This document shows positions 51,437-61,255 of a stretch of 64,000 nucleotides of DNA, one piece after another (the first letter of the stretch is position 1; each line of letters opens with the position of its first letter). Made by a program: the position numbers and the translations under genes. The notes under the pieces are model-generated. The model made no database searches. It saw only the letters and a list, made by a program, of their open reading frames with translations, and had not been told where the DNA came from. Origin of the DNA: Amycolatopsis sp. 195334CR (GTDB lineage Bacteria > Actinomycetota > Actinomycetes > Mycobacteriales > Pseudonocardiaceae). The stretch covers positions 558,001 to 622,000 of the forward strand of contig NZ_JAFJMJ010000001.1 of NCBI RefSeq assembly GCF_017309385.1, written 5' to 3'.

Positions 51437-52669
51437 TTAGTTCTTTTTGCCGCCGGATTTCCAGTCGTCCCAGGACATTTGCCAGACGGACCAGCCGTCG
51501 GTGGCTTCCAGGGTCTGCGGGCCGCCGTTCTGCACGGTGATGATGTCGCCCTTCTTCGAGGTGTCCATCATCCACTTCGCGTTCTCGGTGGAGAGGTTGA
51601 TGCAGCCGTGGCTCACGTTGCGCTTGCCCTGCGAGCCCACCGACCACGGCGCCGAGTGGTAGAAGATCCCGCTGTTCGACATGCGGACCGCGTACTGCAC
51701 GAAGGTGCGGTACCCGGCGGCGCTGTCGGTCGGCACGCCGTAGGTGCTCGAGTCCATCGTGTACCCGGTGTGCTCGCTCATCACCGTGTAGTTGCCGTTC
51801 GGCGTGCTGGAGGACTTCTTGCCCATCGAGATGGGCATCACCTTGGCCTCCTGGTCGTTGATCGACACCTTCATCTGGAAGGTCTGCCCGTCGGCGACGG
51901 CCACCAGCTTGTCGCCGATGGTGAAGTTCGCCGCCCGGTCCTCCTTGCCGTAGGTGCCGTTGCCCAGGTTCTTGCCGTACACCGCGGCCTTCACCGAGAC
52001 CTTGGTGCCCGAGGGCCAGTAGTCCTTCGGCCGCCAGATCACCGAGGTGTCGCTGAACCAGTGGAACGCGCCTTCGACCGCCGGCTCCGACTTGATCTCC
52101 AGCGCCTTCTCCGCGGCGGCCTTGTCCCCCACCTTCATGCCGAAGGTGAAGATCAGCGGCATGCCGACGCCGACCGTCTCGCCGTCCTGCGCGTTGATCG
52201 ACACGGTGGTCTGCCTGGCCGGCTTCGCCGTGTTGAAGGCCGAGGTGGAGGTGGCGGGCTGGCCGTTGGTACCGGTGCCGGTGGCGGTCAGCGTGTAGGC
52301 CTTGCCGTAGCCGAGCGGTTCGGTGGACACCCAGCCTGCCCCGTCCGGGGCGAGCTGACCGGCCACGGCCTTGCCCTCGGCGTTGGTCAGCTTCACGTCG
52401 TTGATCTTGCCGTCGGTGGCGTTGACCCGCACCGGCTCACCGGGGGCCACGTCCGCCGCGCCCTGAGCCGGGGTCAGCGCCAGCGAGACCGGTTTCGGCG
52501 GGGCCGTCGAGGTCTCTTTCGGGGCTTCTCCACCGCCGGGCCCGGGTTCCGCACCCGGCGCCGACGTGCAACCCGAGATGATGAGCCCGGCCGCGACCGC
52601 CAGCAGCGACAACCGCACCCCAGAACGCCCGGTTATCGGGCGACGCCCCACTCCGCCCCGACCACTCAT
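51437..52669 (-). CDS. L,D-transpeptidase lipoprotein
   Basis: 410 residues. Lipoprotein signal with lipobox LIISGC (Cys near residue 34), two Ig-like domains (about 60-250) and a C-terminal YkuD domain with the catalytic motif KRNVSHGCINLSTENA (Cys nucleophile) and upstream His in GIFYHSAPW. L,D-transpeptidases make 3-3 peptidoglycan cross-links that do not need a D-Ala-D-Ala donor, which the van locus 0.35 kb away eliminates. Start: ATG at 52669; an upstream ATG at 52705 is possible. The promoter has TACAGT-like boxes. Ends at a strong terminator. Confidence 0.92.
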   Translation of the reverse strand: MSGRGGVGRRPITGRSGVRLSLLAVAAGLIISGCTSAPGAEPGPGGGEAPKETSTAPPKPVSLALTPAQGAADVAPGEPVRVNATDGKINDVKLTNAEGKAVAGQLAPDGAGWVSTEPLGYGKAYTLTATGTGTNGQPATSTSAFNTAKPARQTTVSINAQDGETVGVGMPLIFTFGMKVGDKAAAEKALEIKSEPAVEGAFHWFSDTSVIWRPKDYWPSGTKVSVKAAVYGKNLGNGTYGKEDRAANFTIGDKLVAVADGQTFQMKVSINDQEAKVMPISMGKKSSSTPNGNYTVMSEHTGYTMDSSTYGVPTDSAAGYRTFVQYAVRMSNSGIFYHSAPWSVGSQGKRNVSHGCINLSTENAKWMMDTSKKGDIITVQNGGPQTLEATDGWSVWQMSWDDWKSGGKKN

Positions 52670-52856
52670 GGAAGACCGTCCATTTCGCTTAGAAGAATGC
52701 CCCAAGTGTCCGGCTACAGTGTGCCCGACCGGGTTCCGGCGCGTGTGCGGGACTGGTCAACTGGGCCGAACCCGCTTCGGGGGACCCCCGTGAACGGCCC
52801 CCGAACCGCGTGCTAAAGTTTCTCTCGTTGGTGCGGGAGAGCGAGAAACCCGCCCG

Positions 52857-52932
52857 GCGCCATTAGCTCAATTGGCAGAGCAGCTGGCTCTTAACCAGCG
52901 GGTTCGGGGTTCGAGTCCCTGATGGCGCACCA
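52857..52932 (+). tRNA. tRNA-Lys (anticodon CTT)
   Basis: Acceptor 52857-52863 pairs with 52922-52928; anticodon stem-loop GCTGGCTCTTAACCAGC with CTT; T-loop TTCGAGT. CCA is encoded (52930-52932). A TAAAGT box (52813-52818) is a plausible -10. A strong terminator follows. The van locus begins directly behind it. Confidence 0.97.
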
Positions 52933-53016: not shown

Positions 53017-53523
53017 TTACCGCGGTGAGCCCCGCCGCATCCTCGGGTCCTGGGACGGGTCGGCGTACATCGGCGGGCAGCCGGATTCGACGGCTTCCGG
53101 GCGCAGTTCGTAGTGCCAGGGCTCGTTGCGGTAGATCTGGCACAGCCCGTACCCGGCGCCGTGCTCGGACAGCCACGCCCTGGCCGCGGGTGGTCCGATG
53201 TCGACGGCGTCGCCCGACACGTGGGCCGACGTGTCCGGGGTGGCCACCCACCGGGCGGCCTCCTTTTCCGAGCCGTACTTCGAAATCGCCCGGCGAAGCA
53301 GTTGTTCCTGGTATTCCGGCGAACGCCAGCCGCCGTTCACGACGAATTCGACGCCGTCGGCCGCGGCATCGGTCGCGGCCCGGCGCAGGGCGTCGAGCAG
53401 TCCGGGGTCCAGGTTGGCCACGGCCGGGCTGCCGTCATCGAACACGGTGACCGGTACGGGGACGGCGCCGTGCGCCTCGCCGAGAGCGTGCCGGACGGCC
53501 GTACCTGCTGCGGTGGGAGTCAT
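53017..53523 (-). CDS. vanY: D-alanyl-D-alanine carboxypeptidase VanY
   Basis: 168 residues, a soluble M15 carboxypeptidase without membrane helix, as in actinomycete VanY proteins. Zinc ligands are in TSAHVSGDAVDIG (His, Asp) and the catalytic Glu and last His in NEPWHYELRP. It removes the terminal D-Ala from peptidoglycan precursors that escaped VanX, leaving nothing for glycopeptides to bind. It is divergent from vanRS and shares with vanH a promoter of matching layout (see VanR box). Start ATG at 53523 fits the alignment with vanH. Confidence 0.9.
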   Translation of the reverse strand: MTPTAAGTAVRHALGEAHGAVPVPVTVFDDGSPAVANLDPGLLDALRRAATDAAADGVEFVVNGGWRSPEYQEQLLRRAISKYGSEKEAARWVATPDTSAHVSGDAVDIGPPAARAWLSEHGAGYGLCQIYRNEPWHYELRPEAVESGCPPMYADPSQDPRMRRGSPR

Positions 53524-53563
53524 ACCGCCAGTCAAGGCAAGGCGATGTTGCCACCACGTACGT

Positions 53564-53603
53564 GGTTTTCGATATGCCGACGATATGCGCGTGAACGTAG
53601 GTT
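53564..53603. promoter_or_regulatory. divergent vanY/vanR promoter with candidate VanR box
   Basis: GGTTTTCGATATGC (53564-53577) is identical to 59721-59734 before vanH. CGATATGC is repeated 11 bp on (53581-53588), a spacing usual for OmpR-type regulators. TAGGTT at 53598-53603 is a -10-like box 6 nt before the vanR ATG. The 14-bp box begins 41 bp upstream of vanY. Confidence 0.7.
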
Positions 53604-53609
53604 CGACGC

Positions 53610-54290
53610 ATGCGTGTGCTGGTCGTCGAGGACGAACCCTATATGGCGGAGGCCATTCGCGATGGACTGCGCCTGGAGGCGATCGCCGCGGACATCGCCG
53701 GTGACGGCGACACCGCGCTGGAGCTGCTGAGCCTCAACACCTACGCCATCGCCGTGCTCGACCGGGACATCCCCGGTCCCTCCGGTGACGAGATCGCCGA
53801 ACGCATCGTCGCCTCCGGCACCGGCATGCCGATCCTGATGCTCACCGCCGCCGACCGGCTCGACGACAAGGCCTCCGGCTTCGAACTCGGCGCCGACGAC
53901 TACCTCACCAAGCCGTTCGAACTCCGGGAGCTGGTGCTCCGGCTCAGGGCGCTCGACCGCAGGCGCGCCCACAGCAGGCCGCCCGTGCGGGAGATCGCCG
54001 GTCTGCGGGTGGATCCGTTCCGCCGCGAGGTCTTCCGCAACGGCCGCTACGTCGCGCTGACCAGGAAGCAGTTCGCCGTGCTCGAAGTGCTGGTCGCCGC
54101 CGAAGGCGGGGTGATCAGCGCCGAAGAGTTGCTGGAGCGGGCGTGGGACGAGAACGCCGACCCGTTCACCAACGCCGTGCGCATCACCGTCTCGGCCCTG
54201 CGCAAGCGGCTCGGTGAACCGTGGCTCATCGCCACCGTGCCCGGGGTCGGCTACCGCATCGACCCACAGGCCGGGGGCGACCGTGGATAG
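53610..54290 (+). CDS. vanR: VanR response regulator (OmpR family)
   Basis: 226 residues. The receiver has acidic residues at 7-9 (VVEDEP) and the phospho-acceptor D51 in AVLDRDIPGPSG, with the family Lys in DDYLTKPFELREL. The C-terminal winged helix shows TRKQFAVLEVLVAAEGGVIS and ITVSALRKRLGEPW. Phosphorylated VanR activates the van genes. ATG preceded by TAGGTT at 6 nt, so the transcript is leaderless. Its stop lies within vanS (8-bp overlap from the GTG at 54283). Confidence 0.95.
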   Translation: MRVLVVEDEPYMAEAIRDGLRLEAIAADIAGDGDTALELLSLNTYAIAVLDRDIPGPSGDEIAERIVASGTGMPILMLTAADRLDDKASGFELGADDYLTKPFELRELVLRLRALDRRRAHSRPPVREIAGLRVDPFRREVFRNGRYVALTRKQFAVLEVLVAAEGGVISAEELLERAWDENADPFTNAVRITVSALRKRLGEPWLIATVPGVGYRIDPQAGGDRG

Positions 54291-55401
54291 AGAGCCCGGG
54301 ATGAGCGTTCGCCTCAAGCTCACCCTCAGCTACGCCGGGCTCCTCATGTTCGCCGGTACCCTGCTGCTCGCCGTCGTGTGGGTGTTCCTGCTGCGTTACG
54401 TGCCCGAGGTGGTCGCCGACGGACCTCCTCGCCGCCCGGGCTCCGGGCCCGCCCAGCCCCACGTGCCGGACCGCTCCGACCTGCTGGAAGCCTTCGTCCC
54501 GAAGGCGATCGCGATGCTGGCGTTCCTGCTGCTGTTCAGCCTGGTGGGCGGCTGGCTGCTGGCGGGCAGCATGCTCGCGCCGCTGACCCGCATCACCAAC
54601 GCCACCCGCCTGGCCGCGAACGGCTCGCTCTCGCACCGGATCCAGCTGGAGGGCCGCGCGGACGAGTTCCGCGAACTCGCCGACGCCTTCGACACCATGC
54701 TCGCCCGGCTCGAAGCACACAACGCCGAACAGCAGCGGTTCGCCGCCAACGCCTCGCACGAACTGCGCACCCCGCTGGCGATCACGCAGACCCTGCTCGA
54801 CGTGGCCCGCAAGGAACCGCCCCGCGACACCGGCGAACTCGTCGACCGCCTCCAGCACGTCAACACCAGGGCGATCGACCTCACCGAGGCGCTGCTCGTG
54901 CTCAGCCGCGCCCACCAGCGAACCTTCGCCCAGGAGCCGGTCGACCTGTCGCTGGCCGCCGAGGAGGCCGCCGAAACCCTGCTCCCGCTCGCCGAAAGCC
55001 ACGGCATCACCATCGAGACCTCCGGTGAGCAGGCCCCGACCACCGGCTCCCCCGCGCTCCTGCTGCAGGTGACCACGAACCTCCTGCACAACGCGATCGT
55101 GCACAACCTCCCCGAGCAGGGCACGGTGTGGGTCACGACCGGCGTTCACGCCGGGAAAGCGGTGCTCACGGTCGAGAACACCGGCCAGCCGGTCTCCGCC
55201 AAAATGGCTTCCACGCTGGTCGAACCTTTCCAGCGCGGCACCCAGCGCGTCCGCACCGACCACGCGGGAGTCGGCCTCGGCCTGGCGATCGTCCAGAGCA
55301 TCACCCGGGCCCACGACGGCACCCTCACCCTCACCCCCCGCTCCGGCGGCGGGCTCCACGTCACGGTGCGGCTGCCCGCGGCCGGAGCGCAGCGCTCATG
55401 A
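54283..55401 (+). CDS. vanS: VanS sensor histidine kinase
   Basis: 372 residues from the GTG at 54283 (VDREPGMSVRLKLTLSYAGL; an ATG at 54301 is the alternative). Two membrane helices (about 15-40 and 75-97) flank an extracytoplasmic loop of about 35 residues, as in the short-sensor VanS of actinomycetes thought to bind glycopeptide directly. HAMP segment, then H-box NASHELRTPLAIT (His near 159), N-box TTNLLHNAIVHN and G-box VGLGLAIVQS. Overlaps vanR and meets the convergent murG2 gene by 6 bp. Confidence 0.95.
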   Translation: MDREPGMSVRLKLTLSYAGLLMFAGTLLLAVVWVFLLRYVPEVVADGPPRRPGSGPAQPHVPDRSDLLEAFVPKAIAMLAFLLLFSLVGGWLLAGSMLAPLTRITNATRLAANGSLSHRIQLEGRADEFRELADAFDTMLARLEAHNAEQQRFAANASHELRTPLAITQTLLDVARKEPPRDTGELVDRLQHVNTRAIDLTEALLVLSRAHQRTFAQEPVDLSLAAEEAAETLLPLAESHGITIETSGEQAPTTGSPALLLQVTTNLLHNAIVHNLPEQGTVWVTTGVHAGKAVLTVENTGQPVSAKMASTLVEPFQRGTQRVRTDHAGVGLGLAIVQSITRAHDGTLTLTPRSGGGLHVTVRLPAAGAQRS

Positions 55402-56496
55402 GGTGGTCCGGCGGCGCTCGGCGACCACGGTGAGCGCGTGCCGGGCCAGGACGGCGCCCGCGTCCGGCGCGCCGGTCGCCGACGCGCGGGCCGACATCGC
55501 CGCGATCCGTCCGGGGTCGGTGAGCAGCGGGATCAGGGTGCGCTCCAGCCACGCCGGGTCGAGGTCGCCGTCGTCGAGGAGCAGCGCCCCGCCGGCCGCG
55601 ACCACCGGCTCGGCGTTCAGCCGCTGCTCACCACCGCGATCCGGCAGCGGAACGTACACGGCGGGCAGGCCGACGGCGGCCAGTTCGGCGCACGTCATCG
55701 CCCCCGACCGGCAGATCGCGAAGTCGGCGGCGGCGTAGGCGTACCGCATCTCGTCGACGTAGGGAACGACCACGTAGGGCGGGTCGCCGTCCGGCACCTC
55801 GACGGTGTGCCGCGGCCCGGTGATGTGCAGCACCTGCACGCCCGCCGCTCGCAACGCCGGAGCCGCACCGGACACCGCGGTGTTGATCGTCACGGCCCCC
55901 TGCGAACCGCCGGTGACCATCAGCACCGGCCCGTCGGGGCGCAGGCCGAACCGCCGCCGGGCGGCGTCGCGCAGCGCGGGCCGGTCGAGCCCGGTGATCG
56001 ACGGCCGCAGCGGGATCCCGATGGCCGTGGCGTTCGCCAGCGGAACGGCCGGCGTGGCGGTGAACACGTGGGGCGTCAGCCGGACCGCCAGCCGGTTGGC
56101 CACGCCCGGCCGGGCGTTCGCCTCGTGGACCACGATCGGCAGGCGCTGCCTGCGCGCGGCGAGGTAGGCGGGAGCGGCGACGTAGCCGCCGAAGCCCACC
56201 ACGACTTCGGCCCGCACGCGGTCGAGCACCGCCCCGGCCGCCAGCACCGCGTCGCGAAGCCTGCCCGGCGTCTCCAGCGCGGCCCGGTTCAGCCTGCGTG
56301 GCAACGGGACCGGCGGGATGAGTTCGAGCGGGTAACCGCGGGCCGGGATGAGCGTGGTGTCCAGGCCGCGGACGGTGCCGAGTGCGGTGATCTCGGCCGT
56401 GGGCGCCAGCAGGCGCAGGGCGTCGGCGAAGTTCATCGTGGGCTCGATGTGTCCGGCCGAATGCCCGCCGGCCACCACGACACGCGGTGCTTTCAC
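55396..56496 (-). CDS. second MurG-type glycosyltransferase in the van operon
   Basis: 366 residues, GT28. Start GTG at 56496 with GGAGGG upstream. MurG motifs: VVAGGHSAGHIEPTM (G loop 1, normally GGTGGH), VVGFGGYVAAPAYLAA, VVHEANARPGVANR, VTGGSQGAVTIN and RSGAMTCAELAAVGLPAVYVPLP. MurG adds GlcNAc to lipid I. Here it is the last gene of the vanHAX operon (GTGA overlap with GNAT), so it probably handles lipid I ending in D-Lac. A chromosomal murG in the dcw cluster is to be expected elsewhere. Confidence 0.85.
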   Translation of the reverse strand: MKAPRVVVAGGHSAGHIEPTMNFADALRLLAPTAEITALGTVRGLDTTLIPARGYPLELIPPVPLPRRLNRAALETPGRLRDAVLAAGAVLDRVRAEVVVGFGGYVAAPAYLAARRQRLPIVVHEANARPGVANRLAVRLTPHVFTATPAVPLANATAIGIPLRPSITGLDRPALRDAARRRFGLRPDGPVLMVTGGSQGAVTINTAVSGAAPALRAAGVQVLHITGPRHTVEVPDGDPPYVVVPYVDEMRYAYAAADFAICRSGAMTCAELAAVGLPAVYVPLPDRGGEQRLNAEPVVAAGGALLLDDGDLDPAWLERTLIPLLTDPGRIAAMSARASATGAPDAGAVLARHALTVVAERRRTTS

Positions 56497-56981
56497 CCCC
56501 GCCCTCCCAGCCGGGCCACGTCGGAAGTGGTACTGAGGCCGGGGGTGTGCAGCTCGCGCACGAACCGGGTCGACCGCCCGGTCTGGTCGGTGTACCCGCG
56601 GTTCCGGTAGAACGCGTGCGCGTGCTGACGGCGGTCCGCGCTGGTGACCTCTATGCGCACGCACCCCCGGCTCGCGGCGAACAACTCCGCCGCGGTCACC
56701 AGTTCACTGCCGACGCCGCGCCCCCGTGCCCGCTCGGCGACGACCAGCGCCACGATCCGGCCCCAGCTGCCGGCGCGCTCGAAGAACGGGCAGCTGTACA
56801 CCGCGATCACGCCGAGCAGGTCGCCGCCGGCATCGGCCACGTAGGCCGCGCCCGCCGGATCCTGGTCCCAGCGGCCGATCCTGGCCGCCGTGGCGGTCGT
56901 GTCGTCCGGTGGGTACCCCAGCTGGTGCAGCAGCTCGCCGACGGCCGCGGCGTCGCTGACGTGTGCCGGTCGTATCCGCAT
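56493..56981 (-). CDS. GNAT-family N-acetyltransferase in the van operon
   Basis: About 162 residues from the ATG at 56981 (MRIRPAHVSDAAAV), with GGAAGAGG just before it; an ATG at 57002 after the vanX stop is also possible. The acetyl-CoA loop is ALVVAERARGRGVGSELVTA (Q/RxxGxG/A-type), and the fold continues to FYRNRGYTDQTGRSTRFV. Position between vanX and murG2 on one transcript suggests a cell-wall related substrate, but small-molecule or antibiotic acetylation is as likely by family. Confidence 0.8.
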   Translation of the reverse strand: MRIRPAHVSDAAAVGELLHQLGYPPDDTTATAARIGRWDQDPAGAAYVADAGGDLLGVIAVYSCPFFERAGSWGRIVALVVAERARGRGVGSELVTAAELFAASRGCVRIEVTSADRRQHAHAFYRNRGYTDQTGRSTRFVRELHTPGLSTTSDVARLGGRG

Positions 56982-57005
56982 GCCTCTTCCCGTGAACGAC
57001 ATGGC

Positions 57006-57614
57006 CTAGACGATGGGGAAGTCGAAGTAGGTGTCCGGATAGGGCTCGTCCTTCAGCACGTAGTGCCACCACTCGCGCTCGTAGGCGCGGAAACCGCAGT
57101 CCTCCATGACCGACCGGAGGTGCTGCCGGTTCTCCGCCTCCACCCGCGCGACCCCGGGCGCGCCGTGGTGGGAGATCGAATCCATCAGGTCGTGGTCACC
57201 GCCCATGGGCGCGAGTTCACCGGTGTCCAGGTGGTAGAGGGTCAGGTCGACCGTGCTTCCCCGGCTGTGCCCCGACTTCCTCGCCACGTACCCCTTTTCG
57301 AACATCTCGGCCCGGTCGATGTGCGGGTAGTGCCGCAGCTTCGTCCGGCCGTCCTCCGGCTGTCGCGCCCAGCGCACGAAGCAGTCCACGGCCCGTTGCG
57401 GGCGGTAACCGTCCCAGAGCAGCAGGCCGAAACCGAGGGAAGCGGCCTTTTCCCGCGCGTTCGCCAAGGCGCCGCACAGTACCTTCGTGCCGACGATCCG
57501 GTTCACCGCGTAGCCGTCGACGGGCTTGCCGGTGAAGTTGTCCCAGGTGGCGTACTTGGCGTCCCAACGCATTCCGGCCACGACCTCGTCCACGAAAGCA
57601 AAATCCTCGTTCAT
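57006..57614 (-). CDS. vanX: D-Ala-D-Ala dipeptidase VanX
   Basis: 202 residues, the exact size of VanX proteins. Zinc ligands and catalytic residues: GHSRGSTVDLTLYHL (His, Asp) and YEREWWHYVL (Glu, His). Also the dipeptide-binding region GLLLWDGYRPQRAVDCFVRW. It hydrolyses the D-Ala-D-Ala made by Ddl so that D-Ala-D-Lac is used. Its start overlaps the vanA stop by 4 bp (ATGA). The long frame above this start is not coding. Confidence 0.97.
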   Translation of the reverse strand: MNEDFAFVDEVVAGMRWDAKYATWDNFTGKPVDGYAVNRIVGTKVLCGALANAREKAASLGFGLLLWDGYRPQRAVDCFVRWARQPEDGRTKLRHYPHIDRAEMFEKGYVARKSGHSRGSTVDLTLYHLDTGELAPMGGDHDLMDSISHHGAPGVARVEAENRQHLRSVMEDCGFRAYEREWWHYVLKDEPYPDTYFDFPIV

Positions 57615-58639
57615 TGGAATTTCCCCGTCAACGTCAACGACACCATGCGGTCGATCACTTCGCCGAGCGGCACTCCGGCGGCCGCCATCATTCTCGGGTA
57701 ACGGCTGTAGGAGGTCATGCCGGGAAAGGTGTTGACCTCGTTGAGCACCACCGTGCCGTCCTCCTTCAGGAACATGTCCACTCGCGACAGTCCGGAGCAG
57801 CCCAGCGCGCGGTAGATGGCCTTGGCCGTCTCCTGCACGCGGACCCTGGTCGCGGCCGGGAGGTCCGCCGGAACGGTGATCGTCGAGTTCTCGGAACCGC
57901 TTTCCGGGTTGCTCTCCTGGTGGATCTTGAAGAACCCGTGGGAGAGCGAGATCTGGTCCACCTCGCCGGCGAACAGCTCCAGTTCGTTCCCCAGGATGGC
58001 GCAGCCGACCTCGCTGCCGACCACGGGCTCCTCGATCAGCACCTTCGAGTCGTACTGCCGCGCGGTCTCCACCGCGGTCGGCAGTTCCTCTTCGCTGGAC
58101 ACCTTGCTGACCCCGAAGGACGACCCCGACCGCGCGGGCTTGACGAACACGGGATAGGTGAGCGGGCCGGGGTCGACCGTCTCGTCCGCCATGACGATCC
58201 GGAAGTTCGGTGTCGGGATTCCGGCGGCGGCGGTGATGACGTAGGCGAGCGACTTGTCCATGCACACCGCGGAACTCTGGACGTCGCAGCCGACGTAGGG
58301 AATGCCGGCCAGCTCCAGCAGCCCCTGCATCGCGCCGTCCTCGCCGAGCTTGCCGTGCAGCACGGGCAGCACCAGGTCCGGGCAGAGCACGTCGAACTTC
58401 CCGCGCTCCAGCACGAGGAACCCGCGGATGCTCCGGTCCGGCGACAGCACGACCGGGCGGCCGGTCTCCGCCCAGCCCTCGTCGGGGCCGTCGCAGAGCT
58501 TCCAGGCACCGCTTGGGGTGATCCCGATCCAGTACGGTTCGTACTTGTCGGCGTCGAGGTGCTTGGCAATCTCCTGCGCGGACTTGACCGAGACGGGGTG
58601 TTCCTCGGAACTTCCCCCGAAGATGATTCCGATCTTCAT
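57611..58639 (-). CDS. vanA: D-alanine--D-lactate ligase VanA
   Basis: 342 residues. ATP-grasp ligase: MKIGIIFGGSSEEHPVSVKS start, VFVKPARSGSSFGVSKV, and C-terminal LNEVNTFPGMTSYSRYPRM. D-Lac specificity is shown by the omega-loop FFKIHQESNPESGSENSTI, with the His that VanA enzymes have in place of the Lys-Tyr of Ddl. It overlaps both vanH and vanX by ATGA junctions. It makes the D-Ala-D-Lac depsipeptide that glycopeptides bind weakly. Confidence 0.97.
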   Translation of the reverse strand: MKIGIIFGGSSEEHPVSVKSAQEIAKHLDADKYEPYWIGITPSGAWKLCDGPDEGWAETGRPVVLSPDRSIRGFLVLERGKFDVLCPDLVLPVLHGKLGEDGAMQGLLELAGIPYVGCDVQSSAVCMDKSLAYVITAAAGIPTPNFRIVMADETVDPGPLTYPVFVKPARSGSSFGVSKVSSEEELPTAVETARQYDSKVLIEEPVVGSEVGCAILGNELELFAGEVDQISLSHGFFKIHQESNPESGSENSTITVPADLPAATRVRVQETAKAIYRALGCSGLSRVDMFLKEDGTVVLNEVNTFPGMTSYSRYPRMMAAAGVPLGEVIDRMVSLTLTGKFQ

Positions 58640-59679
58640 ATCCAGTGCTGCTTTCTGCTTTCGAAGTTCAGGCAGTTGACAATGGAGTTCTCCACGGTGT
58701 CGCCAAGGGCGTGGTCCGTGTAGTAGGCGGTGTGCGGGCTGATGATCACGTTCGGGAGTTTCTGCAGTCGCAGCAGCAGATCGCTGTCCACCGGCTCGTT
58801 CCGGCGGTCCGCGTAGAAGATTCCGTCCTCTCCTTCGAGCACGTCCAGCGCCGCACCGCCCAGTTCGTCGTTCTCCAGCGCGTCGACGAGTGCCTCGGTG
58901 TCGAGCAGCGGACCGCGCCCGGTGTTCACCACGTACGCGCCACGCCTCATTTCCTTGATGCGCTGACGATCCAGCAGGTGGTGGGTGTCCGCGGTGAGGG
59001 GCGTGTGAAGCGTCACGATGTCGCTCTGCCGCAACAATTCGTCCAGAGAAACGTATTCGGCGGAGATCCCGGGACGGCTGTCGTGAGCCAGGATCTGGCA
59101 GCCGAAGCCCCGAAGCCGGTCCACGACGGCCGCGCCGATGCGACCCGTGCCGATGATTCCGACGGTCAGATCGCGCAGCTCTTTCCCGCGCACTTCGTGC
59201 AGCCGGTAGTCGTGGACGTCCGTGCGCCTGATCATGGATTTGGCGTTCCGCACGGACATCAACATCAGCATCAGCGTGTAGTCGGCCACGCTGTCCGGCG
59301 AGTAGGTGACGTTCTCCACGGAAATGCCGACGCTCTTCGCGTACGACACGTCGAGGTGGTTGTACCCGATGCTCCTGGTGGAGATGTAGCCCACACCCGC
59401 CTGGCTGAGCGCGAGCAGCGTTTCGTCGGTGATCCGGGTCTTGTGCCCCACGCTGATGCACCGATTTCCCGCCGCCAGCGCGACATTGGCCTCGGACACC
59501 GCATCCTCGACGATGGTCGGCCGGATCCCGAAGCGGGACGACATCTCCCGGAACAGGGCGGCCTCGTCCGGCCCGCACCCGTAAACCGTGATCCCCATCC
59601 CCGGCACGGTGGCGAAGGACCAGGCCCCCAGCGACCGGGTGCGGCGGGCCGCCGTTCGTGCTGGTTCGCGGTAGGTCAT
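58636..59679 (-). CDS. vanH: D-lactate dehydrogenase VanH
   Basis: 347 residues. NAD-binding motif VGIIGTGRIGAAVVDRL, with catalytic Arg in VVNTGRGPLLD, Glu in DVLEGEDG and His in ISPHTAYYTDHA. It reduces pyruvate to D-lactate for VanA. The 27-residue N-terminal extension (MTYREPARTAARRTRSLG) before MGITVYGCGPDEA is typical of actinomycete VanH; the first ATG is chosen because its distance to the conserved promoter box equals that of vanY. First gene of the five-gene vanHAX-GNAT-murG2 operon. Confidence 0.96.
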   Translation of the reverse strand: MTYREPARTAARRTRSLGAWSFATVPGMGITVYGCGPDEAALFREMSSRFGIRPTIVEDAVSEANVALAAGNRCISVGHKTRITDETLLALSQAGVGYISTRSIGYNHLDVSYAKSVGISVENVTYSPDSVADYTLMLMLMSVRNAKSMIRRTDVHDYRLHEVRGKELRDLTVGIIGTGRIGAAVVDRLRGFGCQILAHDSRPGISAEYVSLDELLRQSDIVTLHTPLTADTHHLLDRQRIKEMRRGAYVVNTGRGPLLDTEALVDALENDELGGAALDVLEGEDGIFYADRRNEPVDSDLLLRLQKLPNVIISPHTAYYTDHALGDTVENSIVNCLNFESRKQHWI

Positions 59680-59720
59680 GCGCCCCAGTCAAGACAGCGC
59701 GGCGTTGCGAGCGCGTATCC

Positions 59721-59734
59721 GGTTTTCGATATGC
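59721..59734. promoter_or_regulatory. candidate VanR box upstream of vanH
   Basis: GGTTTTCGATATGC, identical to the vanY/vanR box and 42 bp upstream of vanH. Between box and ATG both promoters share CCAGTCAAG and a GTTGC segment. A second half-site 11 bp on is poorly kept (GGATAAGT). Confidence 0.65.
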
Positions 59735-59760
59735 GCAGGATAAGTTACTGGCGAGTAGTG

Positions 59761-60345
59761 CTAGGTTTGATGGCCGATCATCGCGATCAGGGTCCCGACC
59801 AGGTCCTCGGGCGTGACCGCCCATTTGTGCGCGGCCAGGTGCCCGTTGACTTCCAGGTCCGTGATGCCGTGCGCGCTGGACAACAGCAGCGCGGCGTACC
59901 GCTGGGTGTGCTCACCGCCGACGACCCCGCCGACGATGGCGAGGAACTCGTCCATGGCGCGGTCGGCCGCTTCCGTTGCGGCCTGGACCGCGGCCGGGGC
60001 GCCGGCCGGGGTGGTGAACATGAGGCGGTACAGGTGCGGCTGGTGACGGCCGATCGTCATCAGGGCGCCCAAGCCGCGCCGCAGGGTGTCCGCGGCGGGT
60101 ACCTCGGGGTCGGTGCGCACGGCCCGCACCTGATCTGCGAGTCGTTCCAGCGCTTCGGCGGCGACGGTGGTCAGCAGGCTGTCCTTGTCCGGGAAGTGCC
60201 CGTACGGCGCCCCTCGGGTGACGCCGGCTCGGGCGCCGACCGCGCGCAGCGTCACCGCGTCCGGGCCGCCGCTGTCCAGCAGGTCGGCGGCGGCGTCCAC
60301 CAGGGCGCGCCGCGTCGCGGCGGCGGATTCCGCTCGGCTGGCCAT
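59761..60345 (-). CDS. TetR-family regulator
   Basis: 194 residues. HTH: RRALVDAAADLLDSGGPDAV and AVGARAGVTRGAPYGHFPDK, then a TetR_C_13-like domain. Start ATG at 60345: TAGGGT (60352-60357, minus strand) lies 6 nt upstream, so it is leaderless; the GTG at 60351 overlaps that box. Operators TGACACTGTCA and TGACAGTGTCA in the divergent promoter suggest autoregulation. It borders the van operon but belongs to the SDR unit. Confidence 0.9.
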   Translation of the reverse strand: MASRAESAAATRRALVDAAADLLDSGGPDAVTLRAVGARAGVTRGAPYGHFPDKDSLLTTVAAEALERLADQVRAVRTDPEVPAADTLRRGLGALMTIGRHQPHLYRLMFTTPAGAPAAVQAATEAADRAMDEFLAIVGGVVGGEHTQRYAALLLSSAHGITDLEVNGHLAAHKWAVTPEDLVGTLIAMIGHQT

Positions 60346-60361
60346 GGGCACACCCTAACGG

Positions 60362-60409
60362 TTGACACTGTCATCCGAGCTGCCTAGCCTCGTTCACATG
60401 ACAGTGTCA
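60362..60409 (+). promoter_or_regulatory. SDR promoter with two TetR operators
   Basis: TTGACA (60362-60367), 17-bp spacer, TAGCCT (60385-60390), then the ATG 7 nt later: a leaderless promoter. Palindromes TGACACTGTCA (60363-60373) and TGACAGTGTCA (60399-60409), centres 36 bp apart, cover the -35 and the start codon. Confidence 0.75.
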
Positions 60410-61255
60410 CATGAAACCGTGGTTGTTACCGGAGCGTCGACCGGGATCGGTGCGGCGAGTGCCCGCGAGCTGGCTCGCCGGGGGTTCCACGTGTTGGCGG
60501 GGGTTCGTCGGGAGCAGGACGCGGACGCGCTTCGCGGGCCCGGCATCGAGCCGGTCATTCTCGACATCACGCAGCCCGAGCACATCGCCGAGTTGGCCGG
60601 GCGCGTGAGTTCGTTGCGAGCGCTGGTGAACAACGCGGCGGTTCAGACCAACGCGCCGGTGGAAGCCCTGCCGTTGAGCGAATGGCGTCGCCAGTTCGAG
60701 GTCAACCTGTTCGGCCACATCGCGGTCACGCAGGCACTGCTGCCCGCGCTGCTGCGTCGTTCGGGCCGGGTGGTCAACATCAGCTCGGTCGGCGGGCGGG
60801 TCGCGATGGCCACGTACGGCCCTTACGCGAGCACGAAATTCGCCCTCGAAGCAGTCAGCGACTCGCTGCGGCGGGAACTGGCGCCGCTGGGCGTGCGGGT
60901 GGTCGTCGTCGAGCCGGGCGCGGTGCGCACGGAGATGCCGGACCGGGTGATCGCCGCCACGAAACAGCAGGCCGCCACCATGTCGCCGGAACACCGCGAA
61001 CGCTACGGAAAGCTGATCCAGGCGGCCAACGCGCACGCCGCCGCCCACATCCCGGGCGGCCGGTCCGCCGCCGACGCGGCCAAGGTGATCGCGAAGGCCG
61101 TGACCGCCGGGAAGCCGCGCACCCGCTACACCGTCGGCCGCGACGCGGCGCTGGGCACGCGGCTGGCCCGGGTGGTGCCGGACCGGTTGCTGGACTGGGC
61201 CCTCGCGGCCAGCTTGAGGCCGCACTACCCGAAGGTCAGTCCAGTTCCGCGGTGA
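60398..61255 (+). CDS. SDR-family oxidoreductase
   Basis: 285 residues. Cofactor motif VVVTGASTGIGAASARELA, NNAA, and catalytic YGPYASTKFALEAVS (Tyr-x-x-x-Lys after the Ser of INISSVGG). C-terminal extension to 285 residues. It is divergent from and most likely controlled by the neighbouring TetR, with very strong operators at its promoter. It overlaps the convergent TetR gene (61236) by 20 bp. Substrate unknown. Confidence 0.9.
   Translation: MTVSHETVVVTGASTGIGAASARELARRGFHVLAGVRREQDADALRGPGIEPVILDITQPEHIAELAGRVSSLRALVNNAAVQTNAPVEALPLSEWRRQFEVNLFGHIAVTQALLPALLRRSGRVVNISSVGGRVAMATYGPYASTKFALEAVSDSLRRELAPLGVRVVVVEPGAVRTEMPDRVIAATKQQAATMSPEHRERYGKLIQAANAHAAAHIPGGRSAADAAKVIAKAVTAGKPRTRYTVGRDAALGTRLARVVPDRLLDWALAASLRPHYPKVSPVPR

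Follow-up and report, generated by a model that had tools for sequence, protein, structure and literature searches.

Why would an Amycolatopsis genome hold a full set of van genes for glycopeptide resistance, and why should their operon also encode a second copy of the cell wall enzyme MurG? The question is raised by a 64,000-nucleotide stretch of Amycolatopsis sp. 195334CR (hereafter the window; contig C1, positions 558,001-622,000). The initial annotation had described a complete six-gene van locus here. All six genes are indeed present and uninterrupted, but two members of the same operon, a GNAT acetyltransferase gene and a MurG paralogue that we call murG2, had been overlooked. From gene content, promoters and residue comparisons we consider it very probable that the van locus stands alone, in a genome where no tested marker of glycopeptide synthesis was found, and serves a likely inducible switch to precursors ending in D-alanyl-D-lactate (D-Ala-D-Lac), with MurG2 as a predicted part of that switch. 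We regard MurG2 as the useful part of the finding, as it appears to form a separate clade with fixed residue changes, to share its inheritance with the van genes and to lie within the predicted VanR regulon.

Organization of the locus

The genes occupy positions 53,017-59,679 of the window, with vanY on the minus strand, vanR and vanS on the plus strand and, read from the right on the minus strand, vanH, vanA, vanX, the GNAT gene and murG2. With the predicted promoter elements, the features are as follows.

53017..53523, minus strand: vanY, predicted cytosolic D,D-carboxypeptidase of 168 amino acids, with the Pfam VanY domain and metal-site motifs
53564..53587, minus strand: predicted VanR box facing vanY, core GCATATCGAAAACC at 53564-53577
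53610..54290, plus strand: vanR, response regulator, from profile matches
54301..55401, plus strand: vanS, sensor kinase, from profile matches
55396..56496, minus strand: murG2, van-linked MurG paralogue of 366 amino acids, GTG start
56493..57002, minus strand: GNAT acetyltransferase with no substrate assigned, from profile matches
57006..57614, minus strand: vanX, D-Ala-D-Ala dipeptidase, from profile and structure alignment
57611..58639, minus strand: vanA, D-Ala-D-Lac ligase, from profile and structure alignment
58636..59679, minus strand: vanH, D-lactate dehydrogenase, from a profile match
59721..59744, minus strand: predicted VanR box facing vanH, core GCATATCGAAAACC at 59721-59734

The two additional genes sit directly 3' of vanX, between it and the end of vanS. 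Overlaps of 4 bases join vanH to vanA, vanA to vanX and the GNAT gene to murG2, and vanX and the GNAT gene are 3 bases apart, so that a single transcript from vanH to murG2 is likely. murG2 and vanS converge, and their 3' ends overlap by 6 bases.

Van-linked MurG as a separate lineage

We identified MurG2 as a MurG by fold and active site. It contains the GT28 domains and the conserved HE, GGSQGA and EQ..N stretches, keeps H15, E289, Q290 and N293, and matches Escherichia coli MurG (1f0k) with an E value of 4e-44. All 15 named genomes that carry MurG2 also have a housekeeping-type MurG, at 49-62% identity (in two of them the housekeeping gene comes in two pieces, and in one, G011, MurG2 is cut off). 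That of the window genome lies on contig C3, has 57% identity to MurG2, and lies beside genes that we read by eye as ftsW and murC.

Phylogenetic analysis separated 15 van-linked MurG sequences from 17 housekeeping-type ones by one branch with 100/100 support. At sixteen alignment columns the two groups are completely or almost completely fixed for different residues. The most striking changes are in the first glycine loop, where MurG2 reads GGHSAGH and housekeeping MurG GGGTAGH (G to H and T to S), and just before the EQ..N stretch, where R-G replaces the G-N of housekeeping MurG. In E. coli MurG, the glycine loop is thought to hold the lipid I diphosphate and the EQ region the sugar nucleotide. 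A residue survey of 120 database clusters, the window's own included (the best 120 of 7,993 matches), found the glycine-loop H in all 116 clusters that cover the loop, and R286, E289, Q290 and N293 in 120 of 120. These comparisons indicate that actinobacterial van-linked MurG is a single clade separate from housekeeping MurG, with nameable residue changes. No paper among our literature search results treats van-linked MurG as a subfamily of its own, a statement that holds for those results only, and the part of PMC8698665 available to us does not set it apart either. A plasmid home for MurG2 was considered and rejected, as none of the 58 plasmid records with a MurG match reaches 60% identity to MurG2.

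Distribution and inheritance of MurG2

A scan of named genomes for VanX relatives yielded 190 loci; we retained the 80 best and examined all of them. The initial annotation had considered the arrangement of the locus different from that of the best known clusters. It does differ from that of the enterococcal vanA operon, which has another gene order and is not known to contain a MurG; the two share D-Ala-D-Lac chemistry, and the window VanX is 66.7% identical to the plasmid-borne VanX-A. Among the 80 loci, however, vanS converges on vanX in 35, MurG2 follows vanX in 15 and the whole vanHAX-murG-vanSR-vanY layout recurs in 10, and van genes accompanied by murG and GNAT genes have been published (PMC8698665). 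According to the available portion of that paper, 135 of 243 genomes of Pseudonocardiales contain van-like genes and 30 hold glycopeptide clusters, and murG lies after vanHAX with GNAT genes nearby in some genomes, non-producers included. Stand-alone van loci of this kind are therefore not rare, and the window locus adds one genome to the known pool.

Among the closest known systems are loci of non-producing Pseudonocardiales such as Prauserella muralis DSM 45305, where vanHAX, MurG2 (83%), convergent vanSR and vanY follow the same layout. The window differs in having the GNAT gene between vanX and murG2, a feature that it shares with loci L017, L032 and L051. In the Rhodococcus equi vanO operon, as cited in the accessible text of PMC8698665, vanHAX-type genes are followed by orf2 and murG; the window has a GNAT gene in place of orf2, and its VanR and VanS are nearest to VanR-O and VanS-O. 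According to the part of PMC9689679 that we could draw on, murG also lies downstream of van loci in Paenibacillus. The vanHAX of the Amycolatopsis orientalis glycopeptide cluster resembles that of the window (VanX 80%, VanA 72%, VanH 75%), but there and in similar clusters vanHAX is followed by vanY, Bbr and biosynthetic genes, with neither murG2 nor vanRS in the 20 kb examined.

Several of these loci have features of their own. Actinosynnema sp. ALI-1.44 has two vanHAX operons, only one of which is accompanied by GNAT, murG2, vanRS and vanY within the stretch examined. In two Jiangella loci (L051 and L065), vanK-like and murF-like genes, as found in Streptomyces van loci, stand alongside MurG2; since both hold a murF-like gene and MurG2, two kinds of extra Mur enzyme can co-occur in one van locus.

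The main alternative is that murG2 and the GNAT gene are passengers that travel with the van genes and have no part in resistance. Among 60 sampled Amycolatopsis genomes, 51 have a vanX above the cut-off (55 of 200 in a family-wide draw) and 13 have MurG2 at 75% identity or more. Several observations weigh against a role for MurG2, and some of them favour the passenger explanation. MurG2 is absent from 38 of the 51 vanX-bearing congeners, which shows that a van locus can do without it, and none of the 11 entries linked to the regulator Bbr, which we take to be a mark of a glycopeptide cluster, has it. One of these 38 congeners (G265, C1:791174-792634) has a pair of short frames directly 3' of an intact vanX that match MurG2 in part (69% and 65%), and we interpret them as a decaying copy. 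MurG2 also falls short of the MurG equivalog cut-off (TIGR01133), with 232 bits against 250. The five relatives that we tested lie below it too (230-240), and the host's housekeeping MurG passes with 279. Finally, in distance correlations over 8 to 11 genomes, MurG2 does not clearly track VanX (0.26), VanH (0.16) or VanY (-0.21).

The same correlations link MurG2 to VanA (0.49, p 0.02, 11 genomes), VanR (0.47, p 0.02, 10 genomes) and VanS (0.57, p 0.01, 10 genomes), and show no match with these hosts' housekeeping MurG (-0.26). Wherever MurG2 occurs in the Amycolatopsis sample (13 of 13 genomes), it shares the strand of vanX and lies downstream of it by at most 0.52 kb, and its position after vanX is constant across orders. 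In the tree, the MurG2 of Pseudofrankia pairs with that of A. taiwanensis (96/80), and that of Jiangella anatolica, a species mentioned in the portion of PMC8698665 at hand, pairs weakly with the window sequence (92/52). Given these pairings, the tree fits transfer of MurG2 between orders. The descent of MurG2 seems to follow the van genes, not the host genome, and at times it is absent or decayed. Against the passenger explanation stand its constant position, its intact active-site stretches, and a mean pairwise identity over 11 genomes of 86%, which exceeds that of housekeeping MurG (74%), VanA (77%) and VanH (76%). We therefore think it unlikely, although it deserves serious weight, that murG2 and the GNAT gene are mere passengers.

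Predicted VanR promoters

Alignment of the upstream regions revealed an element that precedes vanH and recurs in reverse orientation in the vanY-vanR intergenic region; we read it as a predicted VanR site. Its 14-base core, GCATATCGAAAACC, was found twice in the 9.93 Mb genome when one mismatch was allowed; both occurrences are exact and lie before vanY and vanH, and the reversed core, used as a control, has no occurrence in the genome. The similarity of the two promoters extends to the start codons and takes in CTTGACTGG; the distances between core and ATG are 41 and 40 bases. Because this spacing is conserved, we prefer a vanY start at 53,523 over one at 53,535. As the core occurs exactly twice, vanY and the vanHAX-GNAT-murG operon likely make up the whole direct VanR regulon. 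A literature search, covering titles and the openings of abstracts, found no paper that names the 14-base element.

The core is present upstream of vanH, at two mismatches or fewer, in 45 of 62 entries with vanRS nearby (two of these, L137 and L139, repeat L052 and L077), and in 34 of 1500 random stretches of the same loci, a count that includes true sites. The box pattern was derived from the same alignment on which it is scored, and 8 of the 62 entries have a poor box with at least 4 mismatches; both points count against the predicted regulon.

We also considered whether the box is lost where a glycopeptide cluster adjoins. A vanH box with at most one mismatch is found in none of 8 Bbr-linked Amycolatopsis loci, compared with 36 of the 62 vanRS entries (hypergeometric 0.002). 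Two Bbr-linked loci outside Amycolatopsis, L026 and L063, do keep it, however. Judged by their names, only 4 of 16 Amycolatopsis entries with vanRS keep the box, so relatedness may explain the loss and we do not rely on it.

Integrity of the van proteins

Curated NCBIfam cut-offs, together with Pfam, were applied to VanX, VanA, VanH, VanR, VanS and VanY. The enzymes of the D-Ala-D-Lac operon are all above their cut-offs: VanX reaches 400 bits (dipept_VanX, 320), VanA 584 (D_ala_D_lac, 550) and VanH 548 (vanH_gen, 540), and the three genes lie in one operon. The initial annotation had stated that the van enzymes keep their key residues, the D-Lac-specific omega-loop His of VanA among them, and comparison with solved structures agrees. 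The FKIHQE of VanA aligns with FRIHQE in the enterococcal VanA (1e4e) and with FKIHQE in chain 3se7. VanX aligns with 1r44 over almost its full length and keeps SGHSRGSTVDL and EWWHY, and VanY keeps the metal-site motifs SAHVSGDAVD and EPWHYE of solved D,D-carboxypeptidases.

The VanY-domain protein scores 64, far below the VanY-N cut-off of 250. Its N-terminus lacks a hydrophobic stretch (best 19-residue mean 0.83), and we predict on this ground that it acts in the cytosol. VanY-like proteins of loci L029, L050, L058, L014, L054, L065 and L074 do have a hydrophobic N-terminal stretch, and 9 of 36 VanY-like frames in the set, some of them over-extended, exceed a mean of 1.6. The side of the membrane on which VanY works may thus differ between otherwise similar loci.

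The locus could also be silent or decayed in this strain. VanR and VanS speak for this and against an inducible switch, since their best matches, VanR-O (459, cut-off 505) and VanS-O (478, cut-off 720), are both below the cut-offs. Relatives of VanR and VanS occupy these positions in most loci. The reading frames are open, however, the catalytic motifs are intact, and both promoter cores are exact whereas those of several relatives are degraded, which makes a silent locus very improbable.

Search for glycopeptide biosynthesis genes

The assembly of 7 contigs and 9.93 Mb, at 100% completeness, was searched for markers of glycopeptide biosynthesis. There is no match to the type III polyketide synthase family (PF02797), from which we conclude that DpgA is absent; as a positive control, the same model detects A. 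orientalis DpgA with 56 bits. The best match to A. orientalis OxyB has 40% identity, which is no better than the level at which OxyA, OxyB and OxyC match one another (38-44%). No group of three cytochrome P450 genes within 10 kb was found in the genome, the maximum being two. Neither DpgA nor clustered Oxy P450s, the marks of a dalbaheptide glycopeptide cluster, were therefore detected; genes of type V clusters were not searched for by their own sequences. Type V glycopeptide clusters may lack DpgA.

No second vanHAX was found genome-wide. The only other VanX-like match is an M15 peptidase (about 40-48% identity, C1:3150776-3151429), and the 3.4 kb around its gene contain no match to vanH or vanA. 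It has a signal peptide by eye, and similar split matches recur in many congeners. Of the two possibilities in the initial annotation, resistance in a non-producer agrees with the genome search, and a second locus is not borne out. Given the missing PF02797 family, the weak OxyB match and the lack of a P450 triplet, the strain, which has one vanHAX, likely does not produce vancomycin-type glycopeptides. It seems to us most improbable that the locus instead provides self-resistance for a glycopeptide cluster located at another place in the genome or hidden in an assembly gap: non-ribosomal peptide synthetase genes are plentiful (84 condensation-domain matches), pieces of them lie on contigs C5 and C6, and many Amycolatopsis own glycopeptide clusters (Bbr adjoins vanHAX in 7 of 10 congener loci), but the PF02797, OxyB and P450 results argue against it.

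Neighbouring genes

On the vanH side, a TetR regulator and a divergent short-chain dehydrogenase (59761-61255) adjoin the locus. TetR-like matches occur in just 2 of the 80 relatives' loci, so these genes are probably neighbours only. On the other side, an L,D-transpeptidase gene with a Big_10 domain (51437-52705) lies between tRNA-His and tRNA-Lys. We considered it as a partner of VanY because tetrapeptides feed L,D-transpeptidation in N. gerenzanensis, according to the available part of PMC7325946, and dropped it, as the gene occurs at none of the 80 named loci (flanks of up to 10 kb, with some contigs ending earlier). Integration at the adjoining tRNA-Lys (52,857-52,932) was likewise rejected: its last 12-25 bases do not recur in the window, and neither tRNA has a repeated 3' end there; an integrase was not searched for. 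Among 23 relatives' loci, tRNA-Lys was found in none and tRNA-Ala in 3.

Proposed function

As judged from the protein families, VanS would sense the glycopeptide and activate VanR, which is predicted to act at the two near-identical promoters, that of vanY and that of the vanH-vanA-vanX-GNAT-murG2 operon. VanH would then make D-lactate, VanA would join it to D-Ala, VanX would destroy D-Ala-D-Ala, and VanY would trim precursors that still end in D-Ala. The wall precursors would thereby be rebuilt with D-Ala-D-Lac ends, which the drug should bind poorly. For MurG2 we predict the role of a second lipid I N-acetylglucosamine transferase, active and induced, that sustains the supply of lipid II during the switch; its benefit may lie in extra dose or in more efficient use of lipid I with D-Lac ends. 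Because glycopeptides act on the outer side of the membrane, protection of MurG itself against the drug is an improbable purpose, and either dose or a preference for lipid I ending in D-Lac is the likelier one.

Very tentatively, and with more doubt than confidence, we suggest that van-linked MurG could be a VanR-induced, resistance-specific isoenzyme whose changed first glycine loop is tuned to D-Lac lipid I. The contribution of MurG to resistance is stated to be unknown in the accessible portion of PMC8698665, and the MurG2 lineage and the predicted two-site regulon turn this published open point into a testable question. If the suggestion is true, glycopeptide resistance in these actinobacteria would have a dedicated lipid II branch, beyond the new precursor ends.

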